From Hyphomicrobium sp. CS1GBMeth3 (GTDB lineage: Bacteria > Pseudomonadota > Alphaproteobacteria > Rhizobiales > Hyphomicrobiaceae), in contig NZ_FPHO01000003.1 of the NCBI RefSeq assembly GCF_900117455.1, positions 248,001-312,000 of the forward strand: a DNA stretch of 64,000 nt. The letters run 5' to 3'. Position numbers and translations under genes: made by a program. The notes under the pieces are model-generated. The model was not told the origin of the DNA and did not search any database. It saw only the letters and a program-made list of their open reading frames with translations. Numbering within the stretch: the stretch's first letter is position 1; every line of letters begins with the position of its first letter. Below are positions 45,488-59,314 of the stretch, piece after piece.

Positions 45488-46531
45488 CTACAGCACCGAA
45501 ACGCCAGCTCCAGCTTCGACTTGGCCAATGCGCCGCGCCGCATCAAAGCCGGCATCGATGATGATTTGCAGGATCGTGTCGACGGCCGCGCCCTCGCAGG
45601 AGACCAGGAGCCCGCCAGAAGTTTGAGGATCGGTCAGGAGCTTGCGTCGCCAATCGGGGCAGTCTACCGGCAGACGGACCTCCTGACCGTAGCTCGCCCA
45701 GTTGCGCTCGGAAGCCCCAGTGACGAACCCTTTCTGGGCGAGGGAAACGGCAGAGGGTAGTAGCGGCACGTCGGCCGACTTGATCGTCAGGGCGGCTTTC
45801 GATCCGCGCGCGATTTCCAGCGCGTGCCCGAGCAGGCCGAAACCCGTAACGTCCGTGATGGCGTGAACCTCCGGCAGCTTCGCAAGCTCCGTGCCTATGC
45901 GATTGAGCTGCGTCGTCGTCGCTATCATATCCGTGTAACCGGATGCCGGCAGGGCGCCCTTCTTGATCGCAGCGGAATAGACGCCGACACCGATGGCCTT
46001 GGTCAGGATCAGCGCATCGCCAGGCTTGGCGTCGGCGTTGCGTCGCACGTGCTCAGGACGGCACGTACCGATTACCGCGAGACCGTAGACCGGCTCGGGG
46101 CAGTCGATGGAGTGGCCGCCGGCGACCGGAATGCCGGCGTCGGCACAGACTGCCGAGCCGCCCGCCAGGATTTGGCGCACGGTATCGGGCGTGATCTTGT
46201 CAATGGGCATGCCGAGGATCGCAAGCGCCATGATGGGCTTGCCGCCCATGGCATAGACATCCGAGATGGCGTTCGTCGCGGCGATGCGTCCGAAATCGAA
46301 CGGATCGTCGACCATCGGCATGAAGAAGTCGGTCGTCGCAATGATGCACGTATCGGTGTCGAGCTGCCACACGGCAGCATCGTCGCCGGTCTCGGTGCCG
46401 ACGAGAAGCTCGCGGAAGGGTCCTGCGGTCGACGTATCTGCCAGGATCTTCTGCAGCATGGAGGGTGCGAGTTTACATCCGCAGCCGCCGCCATGCGCAA
46501 GCGATGTCAACCGAACTTGAGGGGCATTCAT
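45488..46531 (-). CDS. selD: selenide, water dikinase (selenophosphate synthetase)
   Basis: Makes selenophosphate, the selenium donor for SelA. 347 residues with the catalytic [10 protein letters not shown] (cysteine, not selenocysteine), [41 protein letters not shown] (shown in two parts of the family signature), [27 protein letters not shown] and [10 protein letters not shown]. The ATG at 46531 follows GGAG. It lies 74 bp behind a transglutaminase-like gene on the same strand and 2 kb from the fdn-sel operon on the other strand. Confidence 0.95.
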
Positions 46532-48462: not shown

Positions 48463-51400
48463 ATGAACATCGAGGTCTCTCGCCGGCATTTTCTGACGCT
48501 GGCAGGGGCAGGTGCGGCGGGGTCGGCAATCGGGGCTTTGGGCTTTGGAGAGGCAGAGGCCGCAGTGGCGGCATATGTCAGGCCCTATAAGCTCGCAAAG
48601 ACCACGGAAACCCGAAACACGTGTCCCTACTGCTCCGTTGCCTGCGGCATCATCATGTACAGCCGCGGCGACCTGAAGAAAGGCGAAAAAGCAGAAATCA
48701 TCCACATCGAGGGCGATTACGATCACCCGACCAACCGCGGAACACTGTGCCCGAAGGGCTCTGCGCTGCTCGGTTTCGTCAAGTCCGAGACGCGCACGAA
48801 ATATCCGTTGGTGCGCGCCCCGGGCTCCAACGAGTGGAAACGGGTGTCATGGGACGAGGCGCTCGATCGCATCGCTCGTCACATGAAGGACGACCGCGAT
48901 GCTAACTTCGTCTCCACCAATAAGGACGGCGTAACCGTCAACCGGTGGACGACGACAGGCTTCCTCGCGGCGTCTGCGACGACGAACGAGACGGCCTTCA
49001 TGACCTACAAGGTGGTCAGAAGCGCCGGCATGTTGGTGTTCGACAACCAAGCCCGTGTCTGACACGGCCCGACGGTGGCCAGTTTGGCTCCGACGTTTGG
49101 CCGTGGTGCGATGACCAACTCCTGGACGGACATCAAGAACACGGATCTCGTTGTTATTATGGGCGGCAATGCCGCCGAAGCGCACCCTTGCGGCTTCAAG
49201 TGGGTGACGGAAGCGAAAGCGAACCGCGGCGCGAAGCTCATCGTCATCGATCCGCGCTTCACGCGATCGGCGTCGGTCGCCGATTACTATGCCCCGATCC
49301 GCCAGGGAACGGACATCGCGTTCCTCCTGGGAGTGATCAACTACTGCATCAATACCAACAAGGTGCAGTGGGAGTACATGAAGGCATTCACCAATGCGAC
49401 CTATCTGGTGAATCCGGAATTCGGCTATCAAGACGGCCTGTTCACGGGCTACGACGAAGCCAAACGCGACTACGACCGTGGCACCTGGGAGTACCAAGTC
49501 GGCGAGGACGGATTCGTCAAGGTCGACGAGACTCTGCAGGACCCGCGCTGCGTCTGGAACCTGCTGAAGGAGCACGTCAAGCAATATACGCCGGAGCTCG
49601 TGTCCCGCATCTGCGGCACGCCTCAGGACAAGTTCCTGAGGATCTGCGAGATGATCGCCGAGACGTCAGCGCCCGACAAGGTCATGACGTCGATGTACGC
49701 CTTGGGCTGGACCCAGCACTCCAAAGGCTCGCAGAACATCCGCACCATGGCGATGCTGCAGCTCATCCTGGGCAACATCGGCGTTCGCGGCGGCGGCATG
49801 AATGCTTTGCGCGGCCACTCCAACATCCAGGGGCTGACCGACGTCGGACTGATGTCGAACATGCTGCCGGGCTACATGACGCTGCCGATGGAGAAGGAGG
49901 CGGACTTCGCTGCCTACATCGAGAAGCGCACTTTCAAGCCGATCCGCCCCGGTCAGATCAGCTATTGGCAGAACTACAAGAAGTTCTTCGTCAGCTTCCA
50001 GAAGGCCATGTTCGGCGCGGCGGCAACGGCGGAGAACGATTTCGCGTTCAACTATCTGCCGAAGCTCGATGTGCCGACCTACGACATCCTTCGCGCGTTC
50101 GACCTCATGTATCAGGGCAATATGAACGGTTACATCTGCCAGGGCTTCAACCCGCTGATGTCATTTCCGAACAAAGCGAAGATAAAGGCGGCGCTCGGCA
50201 AGCTGAAGTTCCTCGTCGTCATGGATCCGCTGCAGACGGAAACCGCCCGCTTCTGGGAGGACTACGGCGAGTACAATCCGTCCAACCCGACCAACGTCCA
50301 GACGGAAGTCTTCGAGCTGCCGACGACCTGCTTTGCCGAGGACGAGGGCTCGCTGACCAACTCCTCACGCTGGCTGCAGTGGCACTGGCCCGGCGGCACA
50401 CCTCCGGGCGAGGCCAAGACCGACGTGTGGATCATGGCGCAGCTCTGGAAACGTCTCGTGGCCCTTTATGAGAAGGAAGGCGGACCGTTCCCGGACCCGA
50501 TCCTGAAACTGCACTGGCCCTATACTGATCCGGACGATCCCCCTTCGGCGGAGATCGCAAAGGAGATCAACGGATACGCGGTTGCCGATGTCTTCGATCC
50601 TGCTGATCCGAGCAGGAAGCTGGTCGAGAAGGGCAAGCAGGTTCCGGGCTTCGCGGCCTTGCGCGATGACGGTACTACGGCGTGTGGCTGCTGGGTCTAC
50701 TCGGGATGTTTCAACGAGCAGGGCAACAATATGGCCCGCCGAGGTACGGACGATCCGGATGGCACAGGTGCCTATCTGAACTGGGCATTCGCCTGGCCTG
50801 CTAACCGTCGCATCATTTACAACCGTGCGTCGGCCGACCTCGCGGGCAAGCCCTGGGATCCGGAGCGCAAACTCCTTGAGTGGGATGGCGAGAAGTGGAC
50901 GGGCTACGACGTGCCCGACATCCCGCCGACCTCAAAGCCCGGCGAGGTGATGCCTTTCATCATGAACGCGGAAGGCACGTCCCGCCTTTGGGTTCGCGAC
51001 CTGATGAAAGACGGACCGTTCCCGGTTCACTACGAGCCGTTCGAGAGTCCGGTTACCAACGTGATCGCGCCGATGATCCGGGGCAACCCGGCGGCCCGCG
51101 TCTTCAAGGGCGACATGGAGGCATTTGGCGACGCCTCCAAGTTCCCGTATGCAGCCGTCACCTATCGCCTGACCGAGCACTTCCACTTCTGGACCAAGCA
51201 CGTGCAGGTCAACGCGATGCTGCAGCCAGAGCCAATCGTCGAGATCTCTGAGGAGCTTGCCAAGGAGAAGGGCATCGCCAAGGGTGACTGGGTCCATGTG
51301 TATTCGAACCGCGGCGGGCTCAAGTGCAAGGCGGTGGTCACTAAGCGCATCAAGCCGTTGATCTGCGACGGCAAGACCGTGCACGTCGTCGGTGTTCCCA

Positions 51401-51543
51401 TCCATTGGGGCTTTACTGGCGCCGCCAAGAAAGGCGCGGGCACCAATTCGCTCACTCCGTTTGTTGGCGACGCCAACATCGAGACGCCGGAGTTCAAGGC
51501 GTTCCTCGTCAATATCGAGCCCAGCTCCGGGCCGGTGGCATAG
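48463..51543 (+). CDS. fdnG: selenocysteine-containing formate dehydrogenase, catalytic alpha subunit (FdnG/FdoG type)
   Basis: The Mo/W bis-MGD catalytic subunit of a membrane-bound respiratory formate dehydrogenase, 1026 residues. Tat signal SRRHFLTLAG (residues 6-15). A [4Fe-4S] site is formed by C54, C57, C61 and C96. Codon 200 is TGA at 49060-49062, set in DNQARV-Sec-HGPTVASLAPTFGRG, the exact context of known selenocysteine formate dehydrogenases, and a SECIS hairpin follows. The frame is open on both sides (48463-49059 and 49063-51543), so naive annotation splits the gene. It is followed by fdnH after 12 bp. Confidence 0.97.
49060..49095 (+). promoter_or_regulatory. SECIS element of fdnG
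   Basis: The hairpin just 3' of the UGA pairs 49073-49075 with 49090-49092 and 49077-49080 with 49086-49089, leaving T49076 bulged and the loop AGTTT (49081-49085). Counting U of UGA as 1, the bulge is U17 and the loop has G23 and U24, the three positions known to be needed for SelB binding in E. coli formate dehydrogenase mRNA. Confidence 0.85.
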
Positions 51544-51555
51544 GGAGGACAGGCG

Positions 51556-52458
51556 ATGGCACCGTTCAAGCCATTTGACGTCGTCCGTCGCTCGGCTTCG
51601 GTGACAGCCGCGCCACCCAGGGATCGCGACGTCGAGGTCGTGAAGCTGATCGACACGTCGAAGTGTATCGGCTGCAAGGCCTGCCAGTCGGCGTGCCTGG
51701 AGTGGAACGACAAGCGTGAGGAGGTCGGCATCAACGTCGGGGTCTACGACAACCCGCACGACCTGACGGCGAACATGTTTACGCTTATGCGCTTCACGGA
51801 GTGGGACAACCCCGACACCGGAAACCTCGAGTGGCTGATCCGCAAGGACGGCTGCATGCACTGTGAGGACCCCGGCTGCCTTAAGGCCTGCCCCTCGCCC
51901 GGCGCGATCGTGCAATACGCCAACGGCATCGTGGACTTCATCCACGAGAACTGCATCGGCTGCGGCTACTGCGTGAAGGGCTGTCCGTTCGACATTCCGC
52001 GGCTCTCGCAGGTCGATCACACGGTCTACAAATGCACGCTGTGCTCCGACCGCATCGCCGTGGGCCAGGAACCCGCCTGCGCCAAGGCCTGCCCGACGCA
52101 CTGCATCACCTTCGGAACCACGGAGGAAATGCTGGCGCTCGCCGACGAGCGCATCGAGGACCTCAACTCGCGCGGCTTCGACAAGGCGGGTCTCTACAAT
52201 CCGCCGGGCGTCAGCGGCACGCACGTGATGTACGTTCTGCATCACGCGGACAGGCCGCACATCTATGCCGGCCTTCCGGACAATCCGCGCATCAGCCCGA
52301 TCGTGGAGGCCTGGAAGGGGGTCGGCAAGTATGCGGGCATCGCCGTGATCGCGCTCACGGCCCTCGCCGGCGTGGTCCACCACCTGCTGCAGGGGCCCAA
52401 CCGCGTCACCGACGAGGATGAGGAGCACGCAGACCAGCTCGCGGGAGATGAATCGTGA
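51556..52458 (+). CDS. fdnH: formate dehydrogenase iron-sulfur beta subunit
   Basis: The electron-transfer subunit, 300 residues. Four [4Fe-4S] cysteine groups are visible: [38 protein letters not shown] and [23 protein letters not shown]-terminal membrane helix ([20 protein letters not shown]) anchors it, as in E. coli FdnH/FdoH. The ATG at 51556 follows GGGAGGA. Its stop overlaps the GTG start of the gamma subunit by 4 bp. Confidence 0.96.
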
Positions 52459-53144
52459 GCGAGAAGCACGGACACATCCGAGTGCATCGCTACTCGGGCA
52501 GCGCCCGCATCAACCACTGGATCGTGGCAATCACCTTCGTGGGTCTTATGATCAGCGGGCTATCGCTGTTCCATCCGAGCCTGTTCTGGCTGACTGGATT
52601 GTTCGGAGGCGGCCAGATGGCGCGCTGGCTACACCCATGGCTGGGTCTCTTGCTGGCCGCGGCGTTCTTTGGCTTGTTTGTGCGGTTCGTCTCGCAGAAC
52701 CTGCCAGAGCACACTGATTGGGTCTGGCTCGCACGCATCCGCGACGTCATGGCCGCGCGCGAAGATTACCTGCCAGAGGTCGGCAAGTACAATGCGGGCC
52801 AGAAATTCGTGTTCTGGTCGCAGACCGTCCTGATCTCGACGCTGCTCATCACCGGCATCGGCCTCTGGCCGGCGGCGATGGCGAACATCGAGACGGTGCT
52901 CGGCTTCAAGGCCTCAATCGATCAGCTCCGTTGGGCGGCTGTTATCCATGCCACCGCCGCGGTTCTGGCGATTGCGATCTGGATCTTACATGTTTATGCG
53001 GCGATCTGGGTGCGCGGAACGTTTAGCGCTATGATCCGAGGAACGGTGACGGGCGGCTGGGGTTGGCGTCACCACCGCAAGTGGCTCAGGAGCGAAGTCG
53101 AGAAGGGTGAGATCGATCGGGACGCGCCCCCGACGCCGCGCTAG
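52455..53144 (+). CDS. fdnI: formate dehydrogenase cytochrome b gamma subunit
   Basis: The membrane subunit that passes electrons to quinone. 229 residues with four hydrophobic helices and conserved histidines ([83 protein letters not shown], each shown in part). It starts with GTG at 52455, overlapping fdnH. A hairpin follows before fdhE. Confidence 0.94.
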
Positions 53145-53190: not shown

Positions 53191-53298
53191 TGGTATTACG
53201 CCGTCATCATGCTCAAATAAGAGGTTGTGCGTGACTGACCGCGGTCGACGCCGTCACGCACGCGGATAAATCGAGTTTCATCCTCGGTCGAGGTGCTC

Positions 53299-54216
53299 AT
53301 GTCCGAAACCAAGGCGCCCAAGAATGGCTTGATGGATATCGGCAAAGAAGCCGTTCCGACCTTCGTCGTGCGGCCGGAGCCCGCGCTCCTGTTTGACGCC
53401 CGCGCGAAGCGCTTCCGGTCCCTCGCCGTCGATCACCCGCTGGCACCCTATCTCTCGTTCCTCGCTGACCTCACCCAAGCCCAACACGACATTCAAGCGA
53501 ACCTGGCACCGGTTGCCCTGCCCGACCCGGAGGACATGGAACGCGCGCTGGCGAACGACATGCCGCCCTTGCCGGCGCCCGGGCTCGCGCTCGATGACAC
53601 CGCAACACTGACGGTCAAGCGCCTGTTCGAGCGGATCGCCGATCTCGCAGTGCCGCCGCCCACGGCGACCGCGCGCGACACGCTATTGAAAGCCGATGCC
53701 GATCAGCGCAAAGCGATGGCGGTGGATGCCCTTACGACGCCGGCTCCGCCCGACGAGATCGCCCTCCGTGTGTTGGTCCTCGCCGGCCTGCAGGTCCATT
53801 TCGCGCGGCTCGCATCATTGCTCGACGCCAGCCGTTTGAAGCGTATCACTGATGGTGTTTGCCCGGCCTGCGGCAGCGCTCCAGTTTCAAGCTCCGTCGT
53901 CGGCTGGCCGAAAGCGCACAACACGCGCTTCTGTACCTGCTCGCTCTGCAGCACGATGTGGCATGTGGTGCGCGTGAAATGCGTGCTCTGCAGCTCGACG
54001 GAAGGCATCAGCTATCAGACCATTGAGGGTTCCCCCGATACGGTCAAGGCCGAGTGCTGCGACAGCTGCCAGCGCTACGTGAAGATCCTCTATCAGGTCA
54101 AAGATCCGGCGTTGGACGCGATGGCCGACGACGTCGCCACGCTCGGCCTCGACATGGTGCTGGCCGAGAACGGCTGGCAGCGCGGCGGCGCCAGCCCGTT
54201 CCTGCAGGGTTATTGA
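53299..54216 (+). CDS. fdhE: formate dehydrogenase accessory protein FdhE
   Basis: Needed for maturation of membrane-bound formate dehydrogenases. 305 residues; the C-terminal part has the rubredoxin-like cysteine pairs of the family (CPACGSAPVSS, FCTCSLCSTMWHVVRVKCVLC, CCDSCQRYVKILY). The ATG at 53299 has GAGG upstream. It sits between fdnI and selA on the same strand, linking enzyme assembly to selenocysteine insertion. Confidence 0.94.
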   Translation: MSETKAPKNGLMDIGKEAVPTFVVRPEPALLFDARAKRFRSLAVDHPLAPYLSFLADLTQAQHDIQANLAPVALPDPEDMERALANDMPPLPAPGLALDDTATLTVKRLFERIADLAVPPPTATARDTLLKADADQRKAMAVDALTTPAPPDEIALRVLVLAGLQVHFARLASLLDASRLKRITDGVCPACGSAPVSSSVVGWPKAHNTRFCTCSLCSTMWHVVRVKCVLCSSTEGISYQTIEGSPDTVKAECCDSCQRYVKILYQVKDPALDAMADDVATLGLDMVLAENGWQRGGASPFLQGY

Positions 54217-54232
54217 AGAATAGGGATCACGC

Positions 54233-55675
54233 ATGAACGAAGCCCGTCCCGAGCGAACAAAGCGACCACCTCCCGTAGATCAGGTGCTGCGCACTGATAT
54301 CGGCACGGTTGCCAGCGAGCGCTTTGGGCATCCTGCGACCGTTGAAGCCATCCGGCGGACACTTGCCTGCCTGCGCGCGAGTTCGCAGACGCATACCAAC
54401 GTCCTGTACGACGCAGATGCGATCGCTCGACAGGCATCCGCGCTGCTTGAACGCGAGGACCGGTCGAGCATACGGCGTATCTTCAATCTCACTGGAACGG
54501 TGCTGCACACCAACCTCGGACGCGCGATCCTTCCCGAAAGCGCCATCGCCGCGGCCGTGGAAGCCATGCGCTTTCCGGTCGCGCTCGAGTTCGATGTCGA
54601 AGGCGGCGCACGCGGCGAGCGCGACGATCACGTGCGCGGCCTCATTCGCGAGCTGACCGGCGCCGAGGATGCCGCGATCGTTAACAACAACGCCGGCGCG
54701 GTGCTGCTCGTGCTCAACACCTTCGGCGCGGGCCGGGAAGCAATCGTCTCACGCGGCGAATTGATCGAGATTGGCGGCTCGTTCCGCCTACCCGACATCA
54801 TGGCGCGCGCCGGGGCGCATCTCATCGAGGTCGGCACGACCAACCGCACGCATCTGCGCGATTACGAGGATGCCATCACCTCCGACACCGGCCTCATCAT
54901 GAAGGCACACACGTCGAACTTCGTCATTCAGGGCTTTGCCAAGTCGGTTCCGGCTTCCGAGTTGGCGACCCTTGCCCACACCCGCGGGTTGCCGCTCATC
55001 CATGATTTGGGATCCGGCGCGCTGATTGATCTCAGCCGCTTCGGCCTGGCCTCCGAGCCGACGGTGCGCCAGGCGCTTGCCGAAGGGGCGGGCCTTGTGA
55101 CGTTTTCGGGCGACAAGCTGCTCGGCGGCCCACAGGCGGGACTCATCGCGGGCGCGCGCGATCTCATTGCACGGGTCGCGAAGAATCCCATGAAACGGGC
55201 ACTGCGCATCGACAAGATCCGCCTTGCCGCGCTTGAAGCGGTCCTCAAGCTCTACCGTAACCCCGATCGCCTTGCAGAGCATCTACCGACGGCCCGCTAC
55301 TTTGCCAGGACGAAGCCCGAGATCGCCGCCATCGGCGCCCGATTGCAGGAAGCTGTCGCCACGGCCGCGGGCGCAAACTATGTCGTCACCGTCGCCGACT
55401 GCACGAGCCAGATTGGCTCGGGCGCGCTGCCGCTCGAGAAGCTCGCGAGCGCCAGCATCACCATCAGGCCGCGGGATCGCAAACAAGGCGGCCGCCGCCT
55501 CACCGCGTTGGCAGCGGCGTTTCGTAGTTTGCCAATCCCCGTCATCGGCCACATCGAGGACGGAGCCCTGATCTTCGACATGCGTTGCATGGACGACGAG
55601 GACGGTTTCCTGGCGCAGTTGCCGGAGCTCAGCGATGTGCCCGCCCCCAAGGATGAACCGAATGTTCTGGCGTAG
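54233..55675 (+). CDS. selA: L-seryl-tRNA(Sec) selenium transferase
   Basis: A PLP enzyme that converts Ser-tRNA(Sec) to Sec-tRNA(Sec). 480 residues with NLTGTVLHTNLGRAILPE, VNNNAGAVLLVLNTFG, SNFVIQGF, LPLIHDLGSGALIDL and the PLP lysine in FSGDKLLGGPQAGLIAG. The ATG at 54233 lies 16 bp after fdhE. The end overlaps the start of the Sel1-repeat gene by about 14 bp, so the operon is tightly packed. Confidence 0.96.
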   Translation: MNEARPERTKRPPPVDQVLRTDIGTVASERFGHPATVEAIRRTLACLRASSQTHTNVLYDADAIARQASALLEREDRSSIRRIFNLTGTVLHTNLGRAILPESAIAAAVEAMRFPVALEFDVEGGARGERDDHVRGLIRELTGAEDAAIVNNNAGAVLLVLNTFGAGREAIVSRGELIEIGGSFRLPDIMARAGAHLIEVGTTNRTHLRDYEDAITSDTGLIMKAHTSNFVIQGFAKSVPASELATLAHTRGLPLIHDLGSGALIDLSRFGLASEPTVRQALAEGAGLVTFSGDKLLGGPQAGLIAGARDLIARVAKNPMKRALRIDKIRLAALEAVLKLYRNPDRLAEHLPTARYFARTKPEIAAIGARLQEAVATAAGANYVVTVADCTSQIGSGALPLEKLASASITIRPRDRKQGGRRLTALAAAFRSLPIPVIGHIEDGALIFDMRCMDDEDGFLAQLPELSDVPAPKDEPNVLA

Positions 55676-56462
55676 TTCCAAAGCAGTGTCTCTTGGGGAC
55701 AAGAGCGCATCAATCACGGCCCCTTTGGGCGATGCTGAGGGCGCGGCCCTCCGCGACGACTACGACACGGCCCTCGAAATCTGGTCGCGTCTGGCTCATG
55801 CGGGGTCGGCGCGCGCGCAAGCCGAAATCGGCCGATGCTTCGTCGAGGCCCATGGTGTCGAGCGCAATCCGGTGCTGGCGCACGAATGGCTCACACTTTC
55901 CGCTCGCGGCAACGATCCTTTGGGACAGCGCCTCCTCGGAGAATTCTATTTCAACGGCGAGAACGGAGCGCCGGACCGATCGATTGCCGAGGAATGGTAC
56001 GCGCGTGCGGCAAGACAAGGCGAGCCATATGCACAGGACATGCTGTCCTGGCTGCTAGCAGAGAGCGAGCACCGCAAGCCCGACTATGCGGAGGCCCGCC
56101 TATGGGCGCTGAAGGCGGCCGAGCAGGGCATCGTGCCGGCCATGGTGCGCCTCGGAAACTTCTATCACAACGCCCTCGGTGTCGAACGCGATCCCGCAAC
56201 CGCTGCAGCGTGGTGGCGGAAGGCCGCCGAGCGTGGTGACGCTGATGCGCAAGCGATGCTGGGCGCCTCCTACCAAATTGGCGCCGGCGTTCCCCGCGAC
56301 TCGGCTACCGCGCTTGCCTGGCTCACGCGGGCGCGACAGGCTCACAGCAAGCTCGCCGACCGCTTTTATACGGCTGTCCGCAATGGCTGTACGGAGGAAG
56401 AGCGCCGCGAGGCCGAGTGCCTGGCTAACGCGCCACATCCCTCCGAAGGTGATGCGTCATGA
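55662..56462 (+). CDS. Sel1-repeat protein in the sel operon
   Basis: 266 residues with about five Sel1-type repeats (helical solenoid): ARAQAEIGRCFVEAHGVERN, LGQRLLGEFYFNGENGA, AQDMLSWLLAESEHRKPDYA, AMVRLGNFYHNALGVERDPA, AQAMLGASYQIGAGVPRDSA. No signal peptide is seen. The ATG at 55662 has AAGGA 8 bp upstream and overlaps the end of selA; the stop overlaps the ATG of selB (ATGA). It is translationally locked between selA and selB, so a role in selenocysteine synthesis or insertion is likely by context. The repeat name is unrelated to selenium. Confidence 0.9.
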   Translation: MFWRSSKAVSLGDKSASITAPLGDAEGAALRDDYDTALEIWSRLAHAGSARAQAEIGRCFVEAHGVERNPVLAHEWLTLSARGNDPLGQRLLGEFYFNGENGAPDRSIAEEWYARAARQGEPYAQDMLSWLLAESEHRKPDYAEARLWALKAAEQGIVPAMVRLGNFYHNALGVERDPATAAAWWRKAAERGDADAQAMLGASYQIGAGVPRDSATALAWLTRARQAHSKLADRFYTAVRNGCTEEERREAECLANAPHPSEGDAS

Positions 56463-58519
56463 TTGTCGGCACCGCGGGCCACATCGATCACGGCAAGACC
56501 ACGCTGGTCCGCGCACTCACCGGCATCGATACCGATCGACTGAAGGAAGAAAAGGAACGGGGGATCTCGATCGATCTCGGTTTCGCGTACTGGCCGCGCC
56601 CATCCGGCGCCATCATCGGCTTCGTCGATGTCCCTGGCCACGAGAGGCTCGTCCATACGATGCTCGCCGGCGCGACGGGCATCGATTTCGTGTTGCTGGT
56701 GGTCGCCGCCGACGACGGCGTGATGCCGCAGACGCGCGAGCATCTGGCGATCATCGATCTTCTCGGCCTCAACCGCGGTGTGGTCGCCCTGAGCAAATGT
56801 GATCTGGTCGACCCCGATCGTGTCCGGGCAGTGACTTCTGATATCGCTGCGCTGCTCGTCGGCACTGGCCTCGAAGATTCGGAGGTCGTCCCCGTTTCGG
56901 GCGTGACCGGCGAGGGCCTGGATGCGCTTGTCGAGCAACTCGATGCGGCATGCGCCGACGCGCCTCTCCGCTCCGCTGACGGTCGCTTCCGCCTCGGCGT
57001 CGATCGCTGCTTCACTCTGAGCGGTCTCGGCACGGCGGTCACCGGCACTGTTCTCTCCGGCAGCGTTCGTGTTGGCGATCAGGTGACCGTTAGCCCATCC
57101 GGCCTGAATGCACGGGTCAAATCAATCAATGCGCACAACCGACCTGTGGAGCAGGGCGTGGCGGGCCAACGCTGTGCACTCGTATTGAGCGGTCCGAAAA
57201 TTACAAAGACAATGGTGCACCGCGGTGATGTGGTCGTCGATCCAACGCTTCACGCGCCGACGACCCGGATCGACGCTACGCTGCGGATCCTCGCGTCGGA
57301 GCCGCGCCCCATCGGACAGTGGTTTCCCGTCAAGGTGCATCATGCGTCCTCGGAAGTCCCGGGTCGTGTCGTCATCCTCAGCGATGCGCCCATTGCCCCT
57401 GGAAGCCACGATTTCGCGCAGCTCGTACTGGAGCGGCCTGTCGCAGCGGCAACCGGCGATCCGTTCGTTATCCGAGATACGTCATCGAGCCGTACGGTGG
57501 GTGGCGGCCACTTCCTTGACCTGCGCGCGCCCGAGCGACGGCGCCGCACGCCCGAACGGAGAGCGCTTCTCAACGCGTTGGCCGAGAGCGACCCTGCTCG
57601 CGCCATTGACTTGCGTCTCAAGGGCGAGGGTGCCCGCTGCGATCTCACAGCCTTCTGCCGCGATCGTGCGCTCCGCGCCGACGCCGCCGAAGCGATCGTG
57701 TCGGATCTTGGATTGGTTACACTGACGCTGTCCGGAAATGTCGTCGCCATGCGACCGGAATGCTGGAACTGCTTCCGTGACCAAATCGGTCGTTCGCTCG
57801 ACGATTTCCATGTGGAGCGGCCCGATCTCCCGGGTCTTGCACTCGAGACCTTGCGGAGATCGACCAAGCCTCAGTTCCCTGCCGCACTGTTCGTGGTCGC
57901 GCTGCACCAGTTGATCGATGCAGGGGAAGTTGCCTTGGATCGCACCTGGGTTCGTCGGCCTAGTCATACCGTCACCTTCTCGGCCGAGGACGAGGAACTT
58001 TGGGCGACAATTGCTGGCCGACTCGCGCCTCAGCCTTTTCGACCGCCGCGCGTCCGCGATATCGCAAGGGCCATAGATGTCGATGAGGTCATCGTTCGGC
58101 GCGTCATGCGCATGGCGGCCCGGCGGGGCGATATCGAGGAAGTTGCGCACGATCATTTCTTCACGCGCGCCAGCGTGGAAAGCATGGCTGCCATCGCGAT
58201 CGACGTGGCCCGAATTTCGCCAACCGGAAAATTCACCGCCGCTGAATTCCGCGACCGTCTCGACAACGGTCGCAAGGTTGCGATCCAGATCCTCGAGTTT
58301 TTTGATCGTCACGGCTTCACGATGCGCCGGGGCGACTTGCGCCGGATCAATCCGGCCCGTATCGAATTCTTCGCGCCATCGCCAATATCACAACAACACG
58401 GAGGAGTCCCGTCCCCGGTGGGGCGACCGGTCTTCAAAACCGGGTGGGGCTGTCAGACGGTCTCAGGTGGGTTCGACTCCCATCCTCCTCCGCCAAATCC
58501 TCGCGAGACCCGTCAATGA
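56459..58519 (+). CDS. selB: selenocysteine-specific elongation factor SelB, reading frame continuing through selC
   Basis: Delivers Sec-tRNA(Sec) to UGA codons marked by SECIS. The N-terminal GTPase has GHIDHGKTTL (7-16), DVPGHERL and SKCDL, followed by EF-Tu-like domains II/III (HRGDVVVDP) and C-terminal winged helices that bind SECIS RNA (FTAAEFRDRLDNGRKVAIQILEFFDRHGFTMRR, shown as a family block). The family-like sequence ends near residue 640. The frame has no stop before 58519, so residues 648-679 are encoded by the tRNA-Sec gene and 680-686 beyond it. The ATGA overlap with the next gene supports this long version. Confidence 0.93.
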   Translation: MIVGTAGHIDHGKTTLVRALTGIDTDRLKEEKERGISIDLGFAYWPRPSGAIIGFVDVPGHERLVHTMLAGATGIDFVLLVVAADDGVMPQTREHLAIIDLLGLNRGVVALSKCDLVDPDRVRAVTSDIAALLVGTGLEDSEVVPVSGVTGEGLDALVEQLDAACADAPLRSADGRFRLGVDRCFTLSGLGTAVTGTVLSGSVRVGDQVTVSPSGLNARVKSINAHNRPVEQGVAGQRCALVLSGPKITKTMVHRGDVVVDPTLHAPTTRIDATLRILASEPRPIGQWFPVKVHHASSEVPGRVVILSDAPIAPGSHDFAQLVLERPVAAATGDPFVIRDTSSSRTVGGGHFLDLRAPERRRRTPERRALLNALAESDPARAIDLRLKGEGARCDLTAFCRDRALRADAAEAIVSDLGLVTLTLSGNVVAMRPECWNCFRDQIGRSLDDFHVERPDLPGLALETLRRSTKPQFPAALFVVALHQLIDAGEVALDRTWVRRPSHTVTFSAEDEELWATIAGRLAPQPFRPPRVRDIARAIDVDEVIVRRVMRMAARRGDIEEVAHDHFFTRASVESMAAIAIDVARISPTGKFTAAEFRDRLDNGRKVAIQILEFFDRHGFTMRRGDLRRINPARIEFFAPSPISQQHGGVPSPVGRPVFKTGWGCQTVSGGFDSHPPPPNPRETRQ
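58400..58495 (+). tRNA. selC: tRNA-Sec, anticodon TCA
   Basis: A 96-nt tRNA with encoded CCA. The acceptor stem GGAGGAGT pairs with CCTCCTCC (7 pairs, the eighth is T-C). A 6-bp D stem with the short CGGT loop, an anticodon arm CCGGT-CTTCAAA-ACCGG with TCA at 58434-58436, a long variable arm (TGGGGCTGTCAGACGGTCTCA) and the T arm GTGGG-TTCGACT-CCCAT follow. This matches E. coli selC in layout and much of its sequence. It lies entirely within the selB reading frame. Confidence 0.97.
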
Positions 58520-58977
58520 TGCCGGCCGCCGAGAAGCTGGTCACCGATTTTGAAGCTGCCGCCGAGGCCGCCCGCGATGCCGAGGCGCTTCTGCGCAAGT
58601 CCATGGCCGAGGAGATTGCCAGAGCCGAGCGCCGGCGCGCCTTCGCGTTCCGGCGGGCACGGCTCATCCGGCTGCTCGTCGCAGGCGCGACAGGGGCAGA
58701 GACCGAAGAGGCCGCCCTTGCCCAGCAATCGCGGGTGATCTGCGCAGACCTCGGCTTCAGTGTCGACAACCCGGCGCACGTGGAAATTCTTGACCGGCTC
58801 GAGCCTGTCGGCAAAGCCGTCTGGCAGTGTGTGTGCACCACCGACGATCAGATGGATGCGGCCACCGCGAACGATGCGCTTCACAACTTCGAGGCGTGGT
58901 TCGAGAACGCCCGCGGCCAATCGTTCTACGTGCTCTTCGAGCGTCCTGCTCCCAAAACGCCGCTCGTCGATTTCTGA
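58516..58977 (+). CDS. uncharacterised protein downstream of selB-selC, 153 residues
   Basis: The ATG at 58516 forms an ATGA overlap with the selB stop, so it is probably translated by ribosomes coming off selB. The N-terminal 60 residues form a charged helix (EAAAEAARDAEALLRKSMAEE, ARAERRRAFAFRRARLI, in part), followed by a mixed domain (DLGFSVDNPAHVEILDRLEP, VGKAVWQCVCTTDDQMDAAT, FEAWFENARGQSFYVLFERP). No family recognised. Its place suggests a link with selenocysteine use or tRNA-Sec. Confidence 0.7.
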   Translation: MMPAAEKLVTDFEAAAEAARDAEALLRKSMAEEIARAERRRAFAFRRARLIRLLVAGATGAETEEAALAQQSRVICADLGFSVDNPAHVEILDRLEPVGKAVWQCVCTTDDQMDAATANDALHNFEAWFENARGQSFYVLFERPAPKTPLVDF

Positions 58978-59314
58978 CGTCCGCAAATAGGATCGAGTTG
59001 CCCCCTCCACAACATAGAAGTCAACCAGACCAAACGGCTGCAATTAGCCCTGAACACCATCAGACTGACGGCGGGTTTCGCACCATCTCCCGATCAGCAG
59101 AAGGCCGAACCGATCTTCCGGCACGGTGATGGATACCGTCCACTACATCGGTCAGCTTGGCATTACCGGCATGATCCGGGCAGATGCAGAACGTCCAATA
59201 TCAAGTGAATCTCAGACCCGTTACCGAATCATAGCTTGGTGATTGGGGAGCGGATACCCAACGTGCTAAACTGACGTGCGGCAGATCACAGTCACAACGG
59301 CTCTGAGGTGCGCC
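58978..59314. other. intergenic region without a supported gene
   Basis: 337 bp after the sel operon. No reading frame with support and no clear terminator was seen. GC is lower than in the operon. Confidence 0.5.

Follow-up and report, generated by a model that had tools for sequence, protein, structure and literature searches.

Reading phase and stop position around a tRNA-Sec gene nested in the selB frame

In the 64,000-nucleotide stretch of Hyphomicrobium sp. CS1GBMeth3 DNA that we analyzed (the window; positions 248,001 to 312,000 of contig NZ_FPHO01000003.1), the tRNA-Sec gene selC lies wholly within the reading frame of selB. Judged from the sequences of relatives, the phase in which the selB frame enters selC and the occurrence of a stop codon early behind it are kept far beyond chance. 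With moderate confidence we regard selC as a real tRNA-Sec gene that occupies the end of the translated selB region, and a transcript of the locus as giving either SelB or tRNA-Sec, the two products competing. The anatomy of the window and the model are already known from previous work (Mukai, 2021); new here are the tests of reading phase, stop position, constraint on the tail peptide and synonymous constraint. The signatures of phase and stop position lend evolutionary support to the first step of the 2021 hypothesis, translation through selC. If it is true that each transcript chooses between SelB and tRNA-Sec, the use of selenocysteine would depend at its base on an unusual homeostatic device.

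The nested locus and its gene cluster

ARAGORN detects a single tRNA in the window, a tRNA-SeC with the anticodon TCA, and the Rfam model RF01852 matches positions 58400-58491 with a score well above its gathering score of 47 bits (Table 1). The whole genome contains 11 matches to this model, among which the tRNA-Sec of the window is the best and the runner-up reaches 48.9 bits. The predicted fold of selC is a cloverleaf with a long variable arm. The selB ORF extends from 56459 to 58519 (686 codons, 686 aa) and encloses the 96-nt tRNA gene completely, on the same strand and in frame: nucleotide 58400 opens codon 648, nucleotide 58495 closes codon 679, and selC is read in the selB frame from GGA to CCA. 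The first-pass annotation had described a selB frame that stays open to 58519 with the tRNA as codons 648-679, which is borne out by the ORF, ARAGORN and Rfam, and an overlap of the selB stop with the start of the next gene as ATGA, which is indeed present at 58516-58519: the TGA at 58517-58519 overlaps the ATG at 58516-58518 of a 153-codon ORF (ORF2).

The SelB protein is assigned to the NCBIfam equivalog TIGR00475 with a score above the cut-off of 242.25 bits, and the winged-helix domains PF09106, PF09107 and PF21214 of Pfam are present. The match to TIGR00475 and the alignment to E. coli SelB (5lzb) both end at residue 629, and therefore 57 residues lie beyond the conserved core. These begin with a stretch that includes a linker before selC, the length of which varies by multiples of three among open-frame relatives.

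The surrounding genes are arranged in the order fdoGHI-fdhE-selA-sel1-selB(selC)-ORF2. Like the nested selB-selC loci described earlier (Mukai, 2021), this is an fdoGHI-selAB cluster of an alphaproteobacterium, and selD is located about 2 kb ahead of fdoG on the opposite strand. Apart from the TGA at 49060-49062, fdoG is free of internal stops, and the encoded formate dehydrogenase alpha subunit is the presumed client of the Sec machinery. With this gene and its in-frame TGA, fdoH and fdoI, fdhE, selA, selB/selC and selD, the locus therefore has what a working Sec system needs. Due to the in-frame TGA, the fdoG-type gene appears as two pieces in a plain ORF list. The Sel1-repeat gene overlaps selA by 41 nt, provided that its first ATG is the start, and its stop overlaps the selB start as ATGA (56459-56462). 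The product of ORF2 matched neither Pfam nor NCBIfam models at E<=1e-3, and a protein search listed 63 proteins at E<=1e-3 with the window's own in first place. AlphaFold2 predicts an all-helical protein (mean pLDDT 90.5), and a comparison of this predicted fold with the PDB gave no match at E<=1e-3 (best E 1.1).

Table 1. Features of the selB-selC locus and its gene cluster (positions in the window)
Feature	Position	Strand	Basis
selD, extent of model match	45587..46513 (contig 293587-294513)	-	TIGR00476, 430 bits
fdoG-type formate dehydrogenase-N alpha subunit, presumed Sec protein	48463..51543	+	TIGR01553, 1438.4 bits, TGA read as U
Formate dehydrogenase beta subunit, fdoH type	51556..52458	+	TIGR01582, 459.6 bits
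Formate dehydrogenase gamma subunit, fdoI type	52455..53144	+	TIGR01583, 167.2 bits
fdhE	53293..54216	+	TIGR01562, 254.3 bits
selA	54233..55675	+	TIGR00474, 551.8 bits
Sel1-repeat protein	55635..56462	+	PF08238, 4 stretches
selB, conserved core, residues 1-629	56459..58345	+	TIGR00475, 424.6 bits; alignment to E. coli SelB 5lzb
selB, C-terminal stretch and variable linker, residues 630-647	58346..58399	+	Open frame
selC, tRNA-Sec(UCA), CCA encoded, equal to SelB residues 648-679	58400..58495	+	ARAGORN; RF01852, 74.4 bits
Final 7 selB codons, then the TGA stop (58517-58519)	58496..58519	+	ORF
ORF2, 153 aa, start overlaps selB stop as ATGA	58516..58977	+	ORF

Nesting of selC in selB has been reported for diverse Rhizobiales and some other Alphaproteobacteria, and was termed the first case of a tRNA gene within a bacterial protein gene (Mukai, 2021, IJMS 22:4605, PMC8124441). 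According to the same work, the nested tRNA-Sec has 96 or 93 nt, so that the frame is kept, with Gly as first and Pro as last codon; in many nested loci the next ORF starts within the selB stop, and nesting has been lost in some species. The window shares with these loci the whole tRNA-Sec inside the selB ORF, its length of 96 nt, the in-frame reading from GGA to CCA, the fdoGHI-selABC cluster, the Sel1-like gene and the stop overlapping the next start, and no essential difference in anatomy is apparent. Mukai proposed, as a hypothesis, that processing of the tRNA leaves a non-stop selB mRNA and that SelB and tRNA are alternative products; a 2026 review (PMC13188914) restates this model. The conflict between RNase P and ribosomes and the coupling of SelB to tRNA-Sec levels that the first-pass annotation put forward are essentially this same model, which was hypothetical there too. 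Among the matches listed in a literature search, none was an experimental test of nested selB-selC.

Phase, stop position and tail among relatives

Four genome sets were drawn around the taxon of the window and not by SelB. They comprised 103, 397, 385 and 398 genomes with tRNA-Sec in 28, 31, 56 and 53, respectively, the genome of the window being counted in each. To these came relatives chosen by SelB, namely the best 120 of 3808 proteins from a SelB search that included the tail, and the best 80 of 586 relatives, those nearest to an alignment of the window's SelB with 30 of the 120; the SelB-chosen sets are biased towards nested forms. Four loci with weak RF01852 matches in the genome of the window (L002-L005) had been set aside, 235 loci were examined, and 11 were dropped because ARAGORN gave no tRNA-Sec. 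Three loci (L121, L126 and L130) repeat genomes already in the survey. In the remaining 224 tRNA-Sec loci, the selB frame passes through the tRNA in 43, ends inside it in 5 and ends before it in 108 (closed loci), while selB is distant in 7, antisense in 2 and absent from the examined stretch in 59, a class that may include divergent SelB proteins.

A midpoint-rooted FastTree tree was calculated for 149 SelB proteins from the 156 adjacent loci after filtering by score, length and identity of proteins. All 39 read-through rows fall into one clade of 60 rows with a support of 100, which also holds 2 frames ending inside the tRNA and 19 closed ones; the other 3 cases of an end inside the tRNA are found elsewhere. 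Within this clade, the frame changed between open and closed at least 10 times, a count that, like the other counts of changes given below, rests on a tree with many weak forks.

The selB frames that enter selC do so in phase 0 without exception (48/48, or 45/45 without repeats), as compared with a distribution of 51/25/32 over the three phases in the 108 closed loci. The same holds inside the clade of 60, with all 41 entering loci in phase 0 and 7/6/6 among the closed ones (Fisher p 3.6e-8, kinship ignored). The linkers of the 41 entering loci have 14 different lengths, which have changed at least 18 times. After a frameshift at a random position of the linker, ribosomes would on average still get past the tRNA in 73% of cases, and stop codons therefore do not impose the phase.

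The open frame itself is weak evidence, because the tRNA of the window lacks stops in all three forward frames and because 112 of 150 distinct non-nested tRNA-Sec genes are likewise stop-free in the selB-type frame. Openness alone is no more than chance would give, and as evidence of translation it was rejected as weak. The proposal of the first-pass annotation that translation really passes through selC thus gains from the phase and the prompt stop found in relatives, and the open frame and the ATGA on which it had been based are insufficient alone. The comparison of junctions that it had suggested gave a divided outcome, with 41 of the 60 members of the clade entering selC and the other 19 stopping before it, and the overlap is therefore not essential. 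In one group from the window's own family (L028-L032), a stop precedes selC in 2 of 5 loci.

Behind selC, the first stop is met within 10 codons of the tRNA in 36 of 39 read-through rows, versus 12 of 57 control frames from the closed loci of the clade; by the same measure, 75 of 315 frames qualify among all closed rows of the tree. The offset of 7 codons seen in the window is the commonest among relatives (15/39). On the tree, the stop has moved at least 19 times and has been exchanged for another stop codon at least 8 times. In 20 read-through loci, no ORF of 80 aa or more was found to begin near the stop; here the selB frame reaches its first stop after a median of 7 codons, as compared with 29 and 17 codons for the other two frames; when L014 and L140 are left aside, the remaining 18 give medians of 7, 34 and 16. 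A version of this test over 40 distinct read-through loci (medians 7, 32 and 25) was discarded as biased, because ORF2 keeps one of the other frames open. An early stop that is specific to the selB frame is hard to explain unless ribosomes translate selC, and the comparison across relatives supports a constraint on the frame.

The tail residues were compared in distinct 96-nt tRNAs only (31 nested and 81 other), with the exclusion of pairs with more than 30 differences. The synonymous share of one-base codon differences, leaving out those that involve stops, was 1146/3552 in nested and 6085/19511 in other tRNA-Sec genes. No extra conservation of the tail residues was thus seen in nested as compared with other tRNA-Sec, and selection on these residues is unsupported. 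Avoidance of stops within the entered tRNAs was not significant, with an in-frame stop in 5 of 39 distinct entered tRNAs versus 38 of 150 (p 0.13). The difference at tRNA codon 16, where stops occur in 0/31 read-through and 22/81 other genes, was not used, as the zero is built into the choice of the group. A fixed phase and a prompt stop combined with an unconstrained tail fit selection for transit and release of ribosomes more than selection for a peptide. A frameshift would take translation far beyond the tRNA, and this may account for the fixed phase.

Competition on one transcript and its alternatives

We infer that selB and selC are co-transcribed, that ribosomes and RNase P compete for the RNA, and that this has a homeostatic effect on SelB and tRNA-Sec. 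Ribosomes on selB would cross selC in phase 0 and terminate some 7 codons behind it, and in the window the stop would pass them on to ORF2 via the ATGA. On the same RNA, the tRNA could adopt its fold and be excised by RNase P together with 3' nucleases, leaving an upstream selB fragment devoid of a stop codon and an ORF2 fragment devoid of a coupled start. A cut transcript could then not yield full-length SelB by normal termination, and a densely translated one would be a poor precursor for the tRNA; the two products would therefore compete. We also entertain, as a tentative possibility, that selection acts on ribosomes crossing selC and being released promptly behind it, and not on the peptide, with translation setting the amount of tRNA-Sec on an either/or RNA.

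In E. coli, SelB autoregulation works via a SECIS-like element in the mRNA and is not known to involve a nested tRNA. As far as its citation in PMC8124441 conveys, this autoregulation is likewise a device that balances SelB (Thanbichler and Boeck, 2002). According to the summary in the same paper, the mitochondria of Armadillidium vulgare contain a tRNA-Lys within cox1 in the same direction, the excision of which cuts the mRNA as it would in the window. That case belongs to a compact mitochondrial genome, whereas the window is part of a 4-Mb bacterial genome, for which compactness is an unlikely reason.

Competition on a shared transcript has to be weighed against other explanations. If the overlap were a pure accident, in which the selB stop was lost, the tRNA happened to be stop-free and the tail was tolerated without selection, then the three open frames of the window's tRNA, the many stop-free non-nested genes, the repeated opening and closing of the frame within the clade and the lack of special conservation of tail residues would all be expected. 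Neutral drift would, however, randomize phase and stop position, which counts against this explanation given that every entering locus of the clade is in phase 0, as are just 7 of its 19 closed loci, and given the early stops of the selB frame as compared with the control frames. This explanation was already disfavored, and we consider it improbable.

It is rather unlikely, in our judgement, that selC has its own promoter in the 3' part of selB, an alternative raised by the first-pass annotation, so that a short transcript supplies most of the tRNA-Sec and the overlap is compact packing with little regulatory effect. In that case translation of selB would still run across selC, but on a long mRNA distinct from the short one. 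Many tRNA genes carry promoters of their own. Moreover, 14 Hyphomicrobium-type loci (L006-L017, L065 and L070) show an excess of synonymous identity in the last 24 or so codons (about 72 nt) before selC, with z values of 2.8, 5.2 and 3.1, just where a tRNA promoter with a short leader would be situated. Against this stand z values of 2.6 to 3.4 that occur also far from selC in the three sets compared, and such values are therefore not rare. The 9 window-type sequences, scorable only at 12 or more codons from selC, show no excess near it, and the 16 other nested loci could be scored only at 36 or more codons away. A scan for the sigma-70 type of promoter found no promoter-like site in 58000-59300, a result of little power as only 0.3 are expected by chance, and inspection of the Hyphomicrobium-type upstream sequences revealed no recognizable promoter behind the conservation signal. 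An internal promoter or a leader signal upstream of selC is possible for the Hyphomicrobium lineage, as far as the conservation of these sequences tells. In folding stability, the 201 nt around selC do not stand out from shuffled sequences (z -0.36).

Selection might instead act on coupled translation of ORF2, the frame being kept to let ribosomes finish where ORF2 begins and the tRNA being incidental. This agrees with 14 of the 40 read-through loci examined, in which the stop shares one base with the start codon of an ORF of 80 aa or more; this ORF is an ORF2 homolog in 13 cases (ATGA or GTGA, the window included) and another ORF in 1. It also agrees with some Roseomonas species that retain the SelB tail and the ORF2 overlap but no clear nested tRNA (PMC8124441). 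However, ORF2 homologs follow selC in 23 of the 224 loci and only 17 of these are among the 43 read-through loci; in the other 26, none was found downstream, which makes ORF2 unlikely as the sole cause of the open frame. ORF2 is also present behind closed loci such as L043, L044 and L048. The Hyphomicrobium-type loci, behind the selC of which no ORF2 homolog was found, nevertheless keep the phase and the early stop, as do the loci in which no ORF starts at the stop. Coupling to ORF2 therefore cannot be the only reason, and we give this explanation little credence.

Distribution and frames that end within the tRNA

Among at least 8 genomes searched in the genus, only that of the window has a tRNA-Sec match at E<=1e-11; the others, at least 7 in number, gave none. 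The nearest SelB proteins in the tree belong to other genera of the family. In addition, one genome of another genus (G050 of g11, locus L018) has a SelB and tRNA of the window's type, unlike the 12 other rows of that genus in the tree. Horizontal transfer of the Sec locus within the family is likely from this distribution, and the Sec cluster of the window may have been gained in this way.

Partial overlaps of selB with selC are known from Dyella and Luteibacter, with a similar case in Nitrospirae (PMC8124441). As in the window, the selB frame enters selC there, but it stops at tRNA nucleotides 46-48, whereas the window has TGG at this codon and the frame goes on. Four of the 5 survey frames that end within the tRNA do so at nucleotides 46-48 as well, and in L039, L071 and L127 the codon met at this position is UGA. 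These three loci could represent a degraded nested form. More speculatively, their UGA might be read as Sec, which would make the completion of SelB dependent on its own tRNA. Past the UGA of L039, no stop intervenes until the frame overlaps another ORF as ATGA.
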